Source of the DNA: Pseudomonadota bacterium | GTDB taxonomy: Bacteria; Pseudomonadota; Alphaproteobacteria; Acetobacterales; Acetobacteraceae | Length of the DNA stretch: 64,000 bases | Direction of reading: 5' to 3' | Assembly: GCA_021845595.1 (NCBI GenBank) | Contig: JAJZVV010000009.1 | Coordinates: 1-64,000 of the forward strand | Shown here: one piece after another, positions 8,962-13,675 of the stretch | Layout of the letters: the number at the start of each line of letters is the position of its first letter | How positions within the stretch are numbered: position 1 is the first letter of the stretch | Program-made: the position numbers and the translations under genes | Notes under the pieces: model-generated | What the model was told of the DNA's origin: nothing | Database searches by the model: none | What the model saw: the letters and a program-made list of their open reading frames with translations, nothing else

Positions 8962-9846
8962 ATGCCGGTGCGGCCTCGCCTGTCCGTGCTGTGGCGGGAC
9001 CGCGCCGGGCGCTTTTCGGCACTGAAGGCGGCGACCCTCCTGGCGCTGACGGTGCCGGCGCTCGCCCTCGCGCTGCGCTGGAGCCTCGTCGGCCTCGGCG
9101 CCCGCCCGCTGAACGCCGCGATCCACGATCTCGGGCTCTGGGGGCTGCGCCTGCTGCTGCTCTCGCTGGCCATCTCGCCGGCGCGGGCAGTGTTCGGCTG
9201 GGCGCGCGGGCTGATGATCCGGCGCATGGTCGGCCTGGCGGCAGCGAGCTATCTCGCGGCACATTTCACGCTCTACGCGCTGGACCAGGGATTCCGGCCG
9301 CTGCATATCGGCCATGAGATCGTCCACCGCGTCTATCTGGCGATCGGCTTCACGGCGCTGGTCGGTCTCGCCGCGCTGGCGGCGACCTCCACCAATGCCA
9401 TGATCCGCCGCCTGCGCCGGCGGTGGAAGCAATTGCACCGTCTCGTCTACGCCGTCGCCGCGCTGGGGCTGCTGCACGGGCTCATGCAGGCGAAGTCCGA
9501 CATCACTCAGCCGGCGATTCTGGTTGGGTTCTTCGCCTGGGAAATGCTGTTCCGCGCCCTGCCGGCGCGGCGGCAGAGCGCGCCGCTCGTTCTGTTCCTG
9601 CTCGCCTTCGTCGCTGCCGCGGCGACGGCTGGGCTGGAGGCGGGTTGGTATGCCGCGGCGACGAATCTGCCCTGGCGGCGGGTGCTCGACGCCAATCTGA
9701 TGCCGGAGCTCTACGGGCCCCGGCCTTCAGCATGGGTCGGCATGGTCGCGCTGGCGGTGGCGATCCTCGCCACCGCCCGCTCGGTGTTCAACCGCCGAGG
9801 GCGAGCTGGACCATCCGCACCAGAACCAGTCCCGCTGCGAGGATGA
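8962..9846 (+). CDS. msrQ: MsrQ/ferric-reductase-like haem membrane protein
   Basis: This 294-residue protein has six predicted helices and conserved histidines in LAAHFTLYAL, IGHEIVHRVYLAIGF and WKQLHRLVYAVAALGLLHGL, the ferric-reductase-like transmembrane pattern of MsrQ (YedZ). MsrQ passes electrons from the quinone pool to periplasmic methionine sulfoxide reductase MsrP. The frame is open far upstream, but ATG at 8962 starts the hydrophobic protein just after the previous stop. It is longer than E. coli MsrQ (about 210), with an extra C-terminal helix, and no msrP is adjacent, so a different electron acceptor is possible. Its last 59 bases overlap the convergent NRAMP gene. Confidence 0.75.
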   Translation: MPVRPRLSVLWRDRAGRFSALKAATLLALTVPALALALRWSLVGLGARPLNAAIHDLGLWGLRLLLLSLAISPARAVFGWARGLMIRRMVGLAAASYLAAHFTLYALDQGFRPLHIGHEIVHRVYLAIGFTALVGLAALAATSTNAMIRRLRRRWKQLHRLVYAVAALGLLHGLMQAKSDITQPAILVGFFAWEMLFRALPARRQSAPLVLFLLAFVAAAATAGLEAGWYAAATNLPWRRVLDANLMPELYGPRPSAWVGMVALAVAILATARSVFNRRGRAGPSAPEPVPLRG

Positions 9847-11392
9847 GGTAGCCGCGCAGCGTTCCCAGCCACAGCCGGATCGGACCCGTCAGCACCAGCT
9901 TCGGCAGACTGGCCAGCGGCTTCATCCGCCACGTCTCGCGCGGCCCCACCACCGCCGCCCCGCTGGTCATGCCGCGCAGCGCCGCCAGCGCGGCCGCCAG
10001 CGCCAGGACCCCGCCGACGACCAGGATGGTCAGGATCTGCGGGCCGGTGATGGCGGGGAATACCGTCGCCGCCGTCAGCACCAGCGAGAGCACCACCAGC
10101 GCGGCGATGATCACGCTGGTGAACAGGTTCATCACCCGCCCGTTCACCCACGGGCCGAGCACGGCGCGGTCGTTGCAGAGCAGCAGCAGGAACACGGTGG
10201 CGCTCGGCAGCAGCACGCCGGCCAGGGCCTGAACCGCCACCGTCAGCAGGCCGAGCGGCATGCTCGGCACCAGCACGAGGGCCGCGGAGCAGCCGACGAG
10301 GCCGGCATAGACCAGATAGAAGGCGCGTGCCTCCCACGGCTTGCGGTGCAGCGAGTGGCGCACCGAGAACATGTCGCCCAGCGCGTAGGCGGTCGAGAGC
10401 GAGACCGCGGCGGCGCCGAGCATCGCCGAGACGATCAGGGCGACGGCGAACAGCACCCCCGCCACCCGGCCGGCGACGTGCTCGAGCCCGAGCGCAGTGG
10501 CGCCGACGTCGGCAAACCCACCCGCTTCCGGCCGGCCGCCGAACGCATAGGCGCAGACCGCCACGATGGCCACCGCGCCGATGATGACGATGCCGATGCC
10601 GAGCCAGAGATCGGCGCGCTCATAGCGGATGAAGCGCGGCGTGATGCGCTTGTCGATGACGTAGCTCTGCTGGAAGAACAGCTGCCAGGGCGCGACCGTG
10701 GTGCCGACGATGCCGATGATCAGCAGCATCAGGTCCGAGGTCAGCCCGCCCTTCGGCAGGCCCGGGATGACGAAATGGCGCGCCACCTCGACGGCCGGCG
10801 GACCAACCCAGAAATAGAGCGGCACCAGCGCAAGCGAGCCGACGCACAGCGCCAGCGCCAGCCGCTCGAACCGGCGGAAACTGCCGGTGCCGACGGCGAT
10901 GGTGACGAGCGCCGCGGAGAGCGCGACGCCCGGCTTCTCCGGCAGGCCGAGATAGCGCAGCGCCAGGTCGATGCCGACGAACTCGGTGATGATGGTGAGC
11001 GCGTTGAGCAGGAACAGGTCGATGACGCTGAACGCGCCCCAGAAGCGGCCGAACCGCTCCAGGATGAGCCGCGCGTGGCCGACACCGCTGACCGCGCCGA
11101 GACGCAGCACCATTTCCTGGTTGACGTAGAGCACGGGGATCAGCAACGCCAGCGTCCACAGCAGCGTGTAGCCGTAATTCTGTCCGGCCTGGGCATAGGT
11201 CGCGAACCCGCCGGCATCGTTATCGCCGACCATCACGATCAGGCCGGGGCCGATGATGGCGAGCAAGGTCTTGAGCCGCGCCCATACATGGGTACGCGGG
11301 CCGGTATCATGGCGGCGAATGGTGCCGAGGGCGCCGCGGATATCCCCGACATGCGCCTCGTCGAGCACAGCGACGGTCTGGAGTTCGGTCAT
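9788..11392 (-). CDS. NRAMP-family divalent metal transporter with non-canonical motifs
   Basis: This 534-residue protein has about eleven to twelve helices. The canonical TM1 DPGN motif is replaced by VGDNDAGG, and the TM6 MPH motif by VAPWQLFFQQS, so the Met and His ligands for transition metals are absent. This matches a divergent bacterial branch of the family rather than MntH; a role in Mg2+ or another hard cation is possible but inferred. The ATG at 11390-11392 was chosen over the longer open frame because MTELQTVAVLDEAHVGDI begins a plausible N-terminus, and a small gene ends 32 bases upstream. The 3' end overlaps msrQ by 59 bases on the opposite strand. Confidence 0.85.
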   Translation of the reverse strand: MTELQTVAVLDEAHVGDIRGALGTIRRHDTGPRTHVWARLKTLLAIIGPGLIVMVGDNDAGGFATYAQAGQNYGYTLLWTLALLIPVLYVNQEMVLRLGAVSGVGHARLILERFGRFWGAFSVIDLFLLNALTIITEFVGIDLALRYLGLPEKPGVALSAALVTIAVGTGSFRRFERLALALCVGSLALVPLYFWVGPPAVEVARHFVIPGLPKGGLTSDLMLLIIGIVGTTVAPWQLFFQQSYVIDKRITPRFIRYERADLWLGIGIVIIGAVAIVAVCAYAFGGRPEAGGFADVGATALGLEHVAGRVAGVLFAVALIVSAMLGAAAVSLSTAYALGDMFSVRHSLHRKPWEARAFYLVYAGLVGCSAALVLVPSMPLGLLTVAVQALAGVLLPSATVFLLLLCNDRAVLGPWVNGRVMNLFTSVIIAALVVLSLVLTAATVFPAITGPQILTILVVGGVLALAAALAALRGMTSGAAVVGPRETWRMKPLASLPKLVLTGPIRLWLGTLRGYLILAAGLVLVRMVQLALGG

Positions 11393-11424
11393 GGGTCTGC
11401 TCCCGCCTGGGGGGTGTGGCGATT

Positions 11425-11592
11425 TCAGGCGCGGGCAGCTTGCCAGGAGCAGACCAGCCGGCCCTCGGCGTCGAGGTGCCAGTTGGCGCTCAGCCTCGCA
11501 GCGGCGGAATCCTGCAGCGGCCGCACACACCGTTCGGCCCGAACGGCGGCCTCATGGCGGCGGGAAACGACAAAATCGATGATGGTGGCCAT
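11425..11592 (-). CDS. Small 55-residue protein upstream of the NRAMP gene
   Basis: The ATG at 11590-11592 is preceded by AGGAGG with five bases spacing, an excellent ribosome site, and the frame ends with TGA at 11425-11427, 32 bases before the NRAMP start. The protein begins MATIIDFVVSRRHEAA and ends with NWHLDAEGRLVCSWQAARA, which has a His/Cys/Trp-containing hairpin-like tail. I recall similar short proteins with a C-x-W tail in Acetobacteraceae but cannot name a family. Its position suggests a leader or accessory protein for the transporter. No signal peptide or membrane segment is seen. Confidence 0.6.
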   Translation of the reverse strand: MATIIDFVVSRRHEAAVRAERCVRPLQDSAAARLSANWHLDAEGRLVCSWQAARA

Positions 11593-11607
11593 CGGGGCCT
11601 CCTGTCA

Positions 11608-11626
11608 CTCAAGCGGTTGGCTTGAG
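11608..11626 (-). promoter_or_regulatory. Perfect 7-bp inverted repeat in the leader of the small gene/NRAMP operon
   Basis: CTCAAGC and GCTTGAG flank a five-base loop, ending about 5 bases upstream of the AGGAGG of the 55-residue gene. It could be an operator or an RNA hairpin affecting access to the ribosome site. I looked for a yybP-ykoY (manganese) riboswitch core here and did not find one. Confidence 0.35.
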
Positions 11627-11955
11627 CCCGGAGCGCCCTCGACGCCGTCAGGTCAGCGCGCGAACGCCGATCCTGCTGGCAAGGAAGGAAAGCCCCGAGC
11701 CGGTGACCGGTACCGTGGATTGCCGAACGCCGTCGCGAGCGCGACGACTATGGCACTCCGCGGATCCGGAACTAGATCGCGGTTTCATTGTGTCCCTTGC
11801 AGTTGTTGAACCAGCCCCGCCGACTCAGCCGGCGGGCCGGGGGGCAGATGCGCCATCCCTCTTGTCGAAATAGGCGCCTCACGCTCGCGGCGCAAGCCAA
11901 AAATCGCGGCTCGACGCGCCCGGCGGGCCGACCCGCGCGCGCCCAGCCGGCCGCG
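11627..11955. other. Intergenic stretch upstream of the NRAMP operon
   Basis: About 330 bases without a supportable gene lie between the outer-membrane protein stop and the hairpin above. It should contain the NRAMP operon promoter and the 3' end of the HMA/outer-membrane operon. A short palindrome GTCGCGAGCGCGAC sits near 11732-11745. I see no convincing -35/-10 pair, tRNA or riboswitch. Confidence 0.4.
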
Positions 11956-12873
11956 CTACCAATGGTGTTCGGTGAAGAATGCGTAGCGGAACAGGCCGAG
12001 CACGCCCCAAGCATAGCGGCGCCCGCCAGCCGAGATATGCTGATACACGGGCAGCAGGGCGGTGGCATCGACCGAATAGCGTGGGGTCGTGTAGATGATC
12101 CCAGGATCCGCCGTCCAGAGCTGACCGCCGGAGCCCGGCACCATTGCGCCGATCATGCGGTCCTTATTGGTCGCGGTGTAGTTCGTCTCCAGCGAGGCGA
12201 AGATCTCGGCGTTGACATCGCCTTCGAGGTTCCGCGGCCAAAGCAGATAGTGAAAGCCGGCATCGGCGTAGAAGCTGTCGCCGAACGTGTAGCCGGCGGA
12301 CTGGGCGTAGTTTTCATACCCGACCTGCGCTTCGGCGTTCCAGAACAGCTTGTTCCAGGTCGCCGAGATCGCCTCGCGCTGGCCCCAGGCGCCGGTGCCC
12401 GGCTGCAGGCCGCGCGGCATCGCCGGATTGGCATTGTCCATCCCGGTCGGGGCAAAAATGCCGAAATACGGAGCGATACGGAAGGTCGAGCCGACGTCAT
12501 CGACGCTGTACAAAGTATAGCGCAGTTCCATCAGCGTATCGCCGATGCCCGTGGCGGTGCGGTTGGCGGAATGGCCGCCCACGGTTACCGGTGCGGTGTT
12601 CGAGACCAGGGTGTGATCCTGGACGATCACCGTCCAGTCGGGCGAGGCGCCGTAAAGCCCCACCGCGAGCAGGCCGGCACTCGAGGCATTGCCGCTGAAG
12701 CTGGTGATTTCCGGTTCGAGCCGCACCACGACATTCCCCGCGGAAACCGGCGAAGCGGAGGGAAAAGTCAGCTGGGCGCGCGCCTGCTGTGCGCCCAGCG
12801 CACTGGCGAGCAGCACCAGAAAGACCGTGAGGAATGCGCGGAGCGGGCCGCGGCAGCCGTGCGGACGGCGCAT
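11956..12873 (-). CDS. Outer-membrane beta-barrel protein, phenol-degradation MetA-like
   Basis: A 305-residue protein with a Sec signal (about 1-33, ending in QQARA) and alternating aromatic/hydrophobic strands throughout, ending in FRYAFFTEHHW with a C-terminal aromatic residue as in outer-membrane barrels. Segments such as GIGDTLMELRYTLY and IAPYFGIFAPTGMDNA resemble the transporter-like family once labelled MetA-pathway protein of phenol degradation. Its ATG directly abuts the stop of the upstream HMA-like gene (zero spacing), so the two are translated from one message. Substrate unknown. Confidence 0.7.
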   Translation of the reverse strand: MRRPHGCRGPLRAFLTVFLVLLASALGAQQARAQLTFPSASPVSAGNVVVRLEPEITSFSGNASSAGLLAVGLYGASPDWTVIVQDHTLVSNTAPVTVGGHSANRTATGIGDTLMELRYTLYSVDDVGSTFRIAPYFGIFAPTGMDNANPAMPRGLQPGTGAWGQREAISATWNKLFWNAEAQVGYENYAQSAGYTFGDSFYADAGFHYLLWPRNLEGDVNAEIFASLETNYTATNKDRMIGAMVPGSGGQLWTADPGIIYTTPRYSVDATALLPVYQHISAGGRRYAWGVLGLFRYAFFTEHHW

Positions 12874-13290
12874 TCAGCGCGGCGCCGGGCCGGGTTGGCT
12901 CGCCTGCGCCTTGGGCCGGAAAATCTCGCCCGGCGTATAGGCGGCGTTGACGATGGCGCGGCGCAGTTCAGTATCCGGCACGTCGCCGCCGGGCTTGAGG
13001 TGGATATGGGCCATGCCGTGCATCAGATCGAACCATACCGAATCGACCGCCGGAATCTGCTTCAGCCGGCGGATCAGGCCGAACTTCGAGAACGGGTAGG
13101 TGACGCCCTTCACGATCATCAGGATGTCGTCATCCGGCGTGGCCTGAGCCGCCAGCGCCTCCACTTCGGCGTGGACGGCGGGCGCCGCGGCGAGGCCGAC
13201 CGCGGACCACGCCACGACCAGTGCCAGGACCGAAACCAGACCCGGACGTCGGCGAGGCGGCAACGACCCTGAATTCGCAGTTCGGTGCAT
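12874..13290 (-). CDS. Exported HMA-fold protein lacking the metal-binding cysteines
   Basis: This 138-residue protein has a signal or anchor segment (about 17-41) and a domain at about 56-120 that follows the heavy-metal-associated fold: ILMIVKGVTYPFSKFGLIRR, then AVDSVWFDL and AHIHLKPG, then RRAIVNAAYTPGEI. In the usual motif G-x-T-C-P-F-C the two cysteines would be residues 65 and 68; here they are Tyr and Ser. So it probably does not bind soft metals as its relatives do. The gene abuts that of an outer-membrane barrel with no gap, suggesting a joint envelope role. Family call is by pattern. Confidence 0.6.
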   Translation of the reverse strand: MHRTANSGSLPPRRRPGLVSVLALVVAWSAVGLAAAPAVHAEVEALAAQATPDDDILMIVKGVTYPFSKFGLIRRLKQIPAVDSVWFDLMHGMAHIHLKPGGDVPDTELRRAIVNAAYTPGEIFRPKAQASQPGPAPR

Positions 13291-13423
13291 CGATTTACTG
13301 CCCTCCGTTGCAGTTCCCCACTGTCACATGAAGCGCCGCGGCGGGGCAAGCCTCCCCCGGCCGCCCCCGCCCCTTCACGCGGGCGGATTCGTGCGATATG
13401 CGGGACGATCGGAGGAGGCGTGG

Positions 13424-13675
13424 ATGCAAGCGACAAACATGACGGATGCAGGGCCCACCCCCCCAGTCCCGCCACCGCCGCACCGGGCGCGGCCGGTGCG
13501 CCTGCTGCTGCTCCTGCCCTTCATCGCCATGCTCGCCGTCCCGACGTTCAACTTCGCCGAGCCCGCCCTGTTCGGTCTGCCCTTCTTCTACTGGTACCAG
13601 CTGCTGTGGATCCTGATCTGTAGCGCGCTGGTCGGTGTGGTCTACATCGTCGAAGGCGGGAGTGGGCGGCGATGA
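13424..13675 (+). CDS. DUF3311 small membrane protein, symporter partner
   Basis: An 83-residue protein with two membrane helices (about 27-43 and 57-74) and the DUF3311 pattern ending FYWYQLLWILICSALVGVVY. Such proteins are encoded just before sodium:solute symporters and are presumed accessory subunits. Start ATG at 13424 has AGGAGG five bases upstream; a second ATG 15 bases later is less well placed. The stop overlaps the symporter start as ATGA. Confidence 0.85.
   Translation: MQATNMTDAGPTPPVPPPPHRARPVRLLLLLPFIAMLAVPTFNFAEPALFGLPFFYWYQLLWILICSALVGVVYIVEGGSGRR

Follow-up and report, generated by a model that had tools for sequence, protein, structure and literature searches.

The locus described here is probably a Mg2+-import operon, in which a leader open reading frame (ORF2) is followed by a small gene (sORF1) and a transporter gene of the NRMT type (NRAMP-related Mg2+ transporter), and which would be controlled by a translation attenuator, probably a Mg2+-responsive one. 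It lies within a window of 64,000 nucleotides from an Acetobacteraceae contig (JAJZVV010000009.1). The evidence shows that the main regulatory device is the leader, comprising ORF2 and a set of alternative helices, of which the first-pass annotation had noticed one hairpin. ORF2 was absent from its list and is the most conserved part of the locus. The small frame beside this NRAMP branch is conserved as well: relatives have the frame with its start and ribosome site, together with the hairpins, for which reason the features of the locus are, on comparative grounds, not attributable to chance.

Table 1 Features of the NRMT locus, in window coordinates
Feature	Position	Strand	Basis
ORF2 ribosome site, AAGGGA	11793..11798	minus	Sequence; AAGGA/AGGGA conserved in relatives
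Leader RNA element, sole copy in the genome	11692..11798	minus	Covariance model R1, E 3e-15
ORF2, leader ORF, 46 aa, MKPRSSSGSAECHSRR...	11648..11788	minus	Open frame in 29/29 leaders; coding z 2.5
S3 hairpin, CGTCGC-GCTC-GCGACG, within ORF2	11731..11746	minus	Covarying in 27 sequences
S1 antisequestor, 5' arm GGCTCGGGGC, within ORF2 codons 30-33	11692..11701	minus	Covariation
S1 antisequestor, 3' arm GCTCCGGGCT, overlaps S2	11625..11634	minus	Covariation, folding
S2 sequestering hairpin, GCTCAAGC/GCTTGAGT inside GGGC-CTCC/GGAG-GCCC, buries the sORF1 ribosome site	11595..11638	minus	Covariation, folding
sORF1 ribosome site, AGGAGG	11598..11603	minus	Sequence; kept in relatives
sORF1, 55-aa small protein, C-terminal beta-hairpin W..D..GRL.C.W	11425..11592	minus	Coding z 6.8; AlphaFold2
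Transporter ribosome site, GGGAG	11400..11404	minus	Sequence
NRMT-type transporter gene, 534 aa, predicted Mg2+ importer	9788..11392	minus	Pfam Nramp; best PDB match EleNRMT

The transporter matches the Pfam family Nramp with an E value of 3e-80. As had been claimed earlier, the DPGN and MPH motifs are missing from it, and VGDNDAGG and TVAPWQ occupy their positions. These non-canonical motifs do not leave the protein unclassified: they define the known Mg2+ class NRMT. DxxG and TxxA have been reported as the signature of NRMT proteins (PMC8806188), and alignment with EleNRMT places them at D59-A-G-G62 and T231-T-V-A234 of the transporter; D59, T231 and A234 are invariant across 27 orthologues. 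When compared with solved structures, the transporter matched EleNRMT best (7qia, E 1.6e-47), followed by the next NRAMP at 9e-22 and MntH at about 1e-17. Like other members of the class, it lacks the Met ligand, and a Trp takes the place of the first His of helix 6b (Shin et al. 2014, PMC4072509; EleNRMT, PMC8806188). It differs from them in its length of 534 residues, with a longer C-terminal part, and it is only a distant relative of EleNRMT by sequence. Judged by these sequence features, the transporter is a member of NRMT, and the signature and best match agree with the earlier view that its ion is probably not Mn or Fe. Alpha-, beta- and gammaproteobacteria as well as Actinobacteria have orthologues with 60-67% identity. 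Close relatives, one labelled Acetobacteraceae and one only Proteobacteria, are metagenome assemblies with transporter identities of 96-97%. The source genome (3.6 Mb) contains five NRAMP-family genes.

Some members of the class are under M-box control, and in seven actinobacterial orthologues (L108, L112, L119, L128, L134, L136 and L142) Rfam detected this Mg2+ riboswitch directly 5' of the NRMT gene. Together with the NRMT signature and the match to EleNRMT, this makes Mg2+ the likely substrate of the transporter, with the reservation that one NRMT clade member studied by Shin et al. rescued Mn but not Mg transport and so behaved as a Mn2+ transporter (PMC4072509). In the same study, NRAMP-related genes under M-box control came mostly from Clostridia and Deltaproteobacteria, and a study of M. 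avium listed an M-box before a 'manganese/iron transporter' (PMC3774663). The Mg2+-linked regulation of the class is thus seen through the actinobacterial M-box and not in the window itself. An Rfam scan of window positions 9000-13500 gave no match at E up to 1, M-box (ykoK, RF00380) included, and a search of the window and 48 other loci returned no known leader RNA for the window or the proteobacterial loci. The window leader therefore shares with the M-box its position before orthologous NRMT genes but neither sequence nor structure, and the locus departs from the NRMT class in having a leader ORF and an attenuator in place of an M-box.

The actinobacterial loci contain further elements. In Streptomyces and related NRMT loci (L108, L112, L134 and L136), the M-box is followed by a conserved ORF of about 25 codons (MDGSCSSPGHSRP...SGTR) with its own ribosome site, so that riboswitch and leader ORF are combined in these Streptomyces-type loci. 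The same ORF is present in L069 and L073, where the Rfam scans gave no M-box match. A second M-box lies in the Actinacidiphila locus (L134, 1491-1668, minus), on the strand opposite to the M-box of the NRMT gene.

ORF2 is situated about 55 nt 5' of sORF1, inside an RNA element of about 200 nt. In the leaders collected by alignment-based extraction its frame is open for 41-46 codons in every case, and the other two frames close early, with one exception. Protein and nucleotide sequence are both conserved over the first 16 codons (typically MNPRSSSQPTESHSRR). As every codon position of ORF2 shows nucleotide conservation and its coding score is modest (z 2.5), constraint at the RNA level is mixed into this conservation. 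We infer that ORF2 is translated.

Four helices of the leader are supported by covariation, namely S0, S1, S2 and S3. S0 pairs two parts of ORF2; it is conserved in the family but, by inspection, badly preserved in the window. In S1, codons of ORF2 around position 30 base-pair with a stretch that immediately precedes the ribosome-site hairpin of sORF1. In the alignment, 98.9% of the S1 cells are paired, with 11 double changes, and the paired fraction falls to 65-68% when the helix is slid by one column. For S2, 86% of cells are paired, with 14 double changes and a similarly sharp drop. The hairpin that the first-pass annotation placed just 5' of the sORF1 ribosome site corresponds to GCTCAAGC-CAACC-GCTTGAGT (11627-11607). 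It is present but forms part of a larger structure, in whose outer stem the ribosome site itself is paired. Because some bases belong to both S1 and S2, the two helices are mutually exclusive. A window transcript that ends just short of the ribosome site folds into S1, and one that includes the site folds into S2. At equilibrium, S2 is better than S1 by about 9 kcal/mol, so the switch would have to be kinetic.

It could be argued that such a leader is a riboswitch, the conserved 5' part of which binds Mg2+ or another ligand while the ORF2 frame is incidental or secondary. Many nucleotides around the ORF2 start are indeed near-invariant, the covarying helices S0 and S3 lie upstream of the switch, and the actinobacterial orthologues do use a riboswitch at the same place. 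However, an aptamer is not expected to keep a ribosome site, an ATG and a long open frame in all 29 leaders, unrelated leader ORFs are found at the same place in other lineages, and the Rfam scan was empty. We regard this explanation as unlikely.

We instead favor attenuation by translation of ORF2. S2 would hide the ribosome site and start codon of sORF1, leaving the first cistron off, whereas S1, which has an arm in the second half of ORF2, would dismantle the stem by which S2 occludes that site. During normal translation of ORF2 the ribosome would cover the S1 arm, S2 would form and expression would be low. If a ribosome stalled or dropped off early in ORF2, S1 would form cotranscriptionally, before the ribosome site is made; the site would then be free and sORF1 would be translated. 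The NRMT gene, 32 nt downstream, would presumably be carried along by translational coupling. The trigger is most likely low Mg2+, as in MgtL and mgtQ, given that the transporter is of a Mg2+ class, that orthologues have an M-box and that MgtL-like leaders occur elsewhere.

The MgtL-like leaders belong to NRMT genes of Burkholderiales, which have a different leader ORF at the same place: MPDSDSYPLCR, MPDPEPCSC or MSDPDPSRS. Their DPEP and DPDP starts match the EPDP motif of MgtL, which makes ribosomes fall off at low Mg2+ (PMC11282234). NRMT genes of other lineages have short Ser/Asp/Asn/Pro-rich starts at this place. An acidic, Pro- or Ser-rich leader ORF was found in 31 of 71 NRMT upstream regions, compared to 1 of 71 on the opposite strand, a count that describes rather than tests, as the criterion was chosen after seeing examples. 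These leaders also bear on a further explanation, in which ORF2 would respond, by way of classical attenuation at its codons for Ser, Arg or Pro, to amino-acid supply and not to Mg2+. The first 16 codons of ORF2 are rich in these residues and include conserved CGA, TCT and AGT codons, expected to be rare in a GC-rich genome. Yet the controlled gene belongs to a Mg2+ transporter class and not to a biosynthetic pathway, and the Burkholderiales leaders are of the MgtL type, making amino-acid sensing improbable.

The small ORFs near NRMT genes vary between lineages. In three proteobacterial loci (L075, L076 and L122) the order is reversed: a small ORF resembling W..D..GRLVC.W comes first, and a short D/N/P/S-rich ORF stands between it and the NRMT gene. 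Other small ORFs lie directly 5' of betaproteobacterial NRMT genes, in L084, L086, L089, L104, L110, L117, L120, L124, L127 and L143 and in L100, L125 and L139; the ORF reads MNFGLLLSQLPHV.ESR.HYD... in Burkholderia relatives and MRKF...NHGYAAAAIRLSRTYW in Ralstonia. In betaproteobacteria, the slot for a small ORF is kept and the protein differs.

A covariance model of the leader found 50 copies in 48 of 200 family genomes, and coordinates and direct reading placed 45 of them before an NRMT gene. The leader-bearing transporters comprise a main clade and two other clades, at 36-38% and 43-46% identity. Before the NRMT genes of these two clades the same helices recur with other sequence; the S2 stem often has other bases, for example GATCCCTCC/GGAGGGATC, and the pairing with the ribosome site is kept. 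Outside the family, the leader was found in Dyella, Sphingobium and Telmatospirillum. The other five copies have no adjoining NRMT; among the five, the three that come from related genomes retain both the leader and sORF1. In L178, L179 and L188 (also L177 and L176), the leader is kept with sORF1 or a remnant of it and no NRMT gene lies downstream; the next gene in L178 is on the opposite strand.

Further upstream, L041, L048, L012, L088 and L058 contain ATACCC-N-GGGTAT palindromes about 100-130 bases 5' of ORF2 that overlap a possible -10 region; no such palindrome was seen in the window. We presume a resemblance to operators of CsoR/RcnR-type metal repressors. The two genes 5' of the leader in the window (11956-12873 and 12874-13290, minus) have no Pfam match and, by their N-terminal sequences, possibly encode secreted proteins.

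The small gene had been described as a well-initiated frame of 55 codons, and this description holds: AGGAGG (11603-11598) lies five bases before its ATG, and the frame ends 32 bases before the transporter ATG, as stated. Its substitution pattern is that of a coding sequence (z = 6.8 in a column-permutation test, to be read with caution because the alignment was made at the protein level). In leaders from the family and from Dyella, the start behind the leader usually opens a frame that begins with MAA and ends with W..D..GRL.C.W. AlphaFold2 predicted a beta-hairpin at the C-terminus (residues 33-53) with confidence and modelled the N-terminal half with low confidence. Searches of Pfam and NCBIfam at E up to 1 matched no family. 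When 200 genomes of the order were searched with a profile, only one strong match lay anywhere other than directly behind the leader, which indicates that sORF1 belongs to this locus. Taken together, sequence conservation identifies sORF1 as a real gene tied to the NRMT locus.

As a role for the protein, the first-pass annotation proposed a small subunit or regulator dedicated to the transporter, and the coding signal, the conserved beta-hairpin and the confinement of strong matches to the leader, bar one, would point that way. In L043, L054 and L065, however, sORF1 is absent while leader and NRMT are kept, the controlled ATG being that of NRMT itself, and in L049 and L064 it is truncated to 16 or 32 codons beside an intact leader and NRMT. 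sORF1 also evolves fast: among the three closest sequences its dN/dS is 0.44-0.72, compared to 0.07-0.09 for NRMT, and one of the three has a 15-base in-frame insertion. Natural loss weakens the idea of a subunit, and as three relatives retain transporter and leader without it, sORF1 is not an obligatory one. It may serve translation coupling only. Conversely, its retention in three genomes without an NRMT gene in cis suggests that it may act by itself, and in loci of the L178/L179/L188 type it may have a function of its own. A dedicated partner thus seems possible but doubtful.

The proposed device resembles that of Salmonella mgtQ-mgtB. There, when translation of a short ORF is aborted, stem-loop 2:3 forms in preference to 3:4 and the ribosome site of mgtB becomes accessible (PMC8092293). 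In both cases, a short ORF lies just 5' of the controlled genes, a Mg2+ importer is encoded downstream, and the RNA can form two alternative helices, of which one masks the ribosome site of the following cistron and the other would free it when ribosomes do not read through the ORF; as in the known system, one of the exclusive helices of the window has an arm in the ORF. In contrast to mgtQ, which has 8 codons with Asp2 and Glu5, ORF2 has 46 and is Ser/Arg/Pro-rich, and its control of an NRAMP-type importer would run by way of an additional small gene. MgtL of E. coli mgtA is likewise a leader peptide before a Mg2+ importer (PMC11282234), but it acts by Rho-dependent termination, whereas the window leader is proposed to act on a ribosome site. 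The acidic, proline-containing start that destabilizes ribosomes is present in the MPDPEP and MSDPDP leaders of Burkholderiales and not in the window, where ORF2 starts MKPRSSSGSAEC, has its first acidic residue at codon 11 and contains no MgtL-type acidic-proline run. As it has no early acidic residue, we describe the window leader as one that would work like the mgtQ and MgtL attenuators and do not file it as a member.

Both the transporter class and the attenuator principle are already known. Neither the leader peptide family nor the sORF1 family was found in the literature and family libraries searched, and the same is true of the use of such a leader on an NRAMP-type Mg2+ importer; none of the open-access papers searched linked NRAMP or NRMT genes to a leader ORF. 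Leader-peptide sensing of Mg2+ has been described for the enterobacterial transporters mgtA and mgtB (PMC11282234, PMC8092293), and the present locus suggests a mechanism of the same kind for another class of transporter in distant bacteria. We tentatively suggest that such sensing could be general for NRAMP-type Mg2+ importers across Proteobacteria and Actinobacteria, by means of several unrelated peptides and alongside the M-box; the Acetobacteraceae version might then represent a new, non-acidic leader peptide family that drives new small Mg2+-starvation proteins ending in W..D..GRL.C.W. Covarying helices and natural variants are at hand for testing, and sORF1 adds a small-protein family with a defined genomic context. 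As clade membership alone does not settle whether a transporter carries Mg2+ or Mn2+/Fe2+ (Shin et al., PMC4072509), the leader would also offer regulatory grounds for predicting whether an NRAMP-like gene serves Mg2+ or one of the other two ions.
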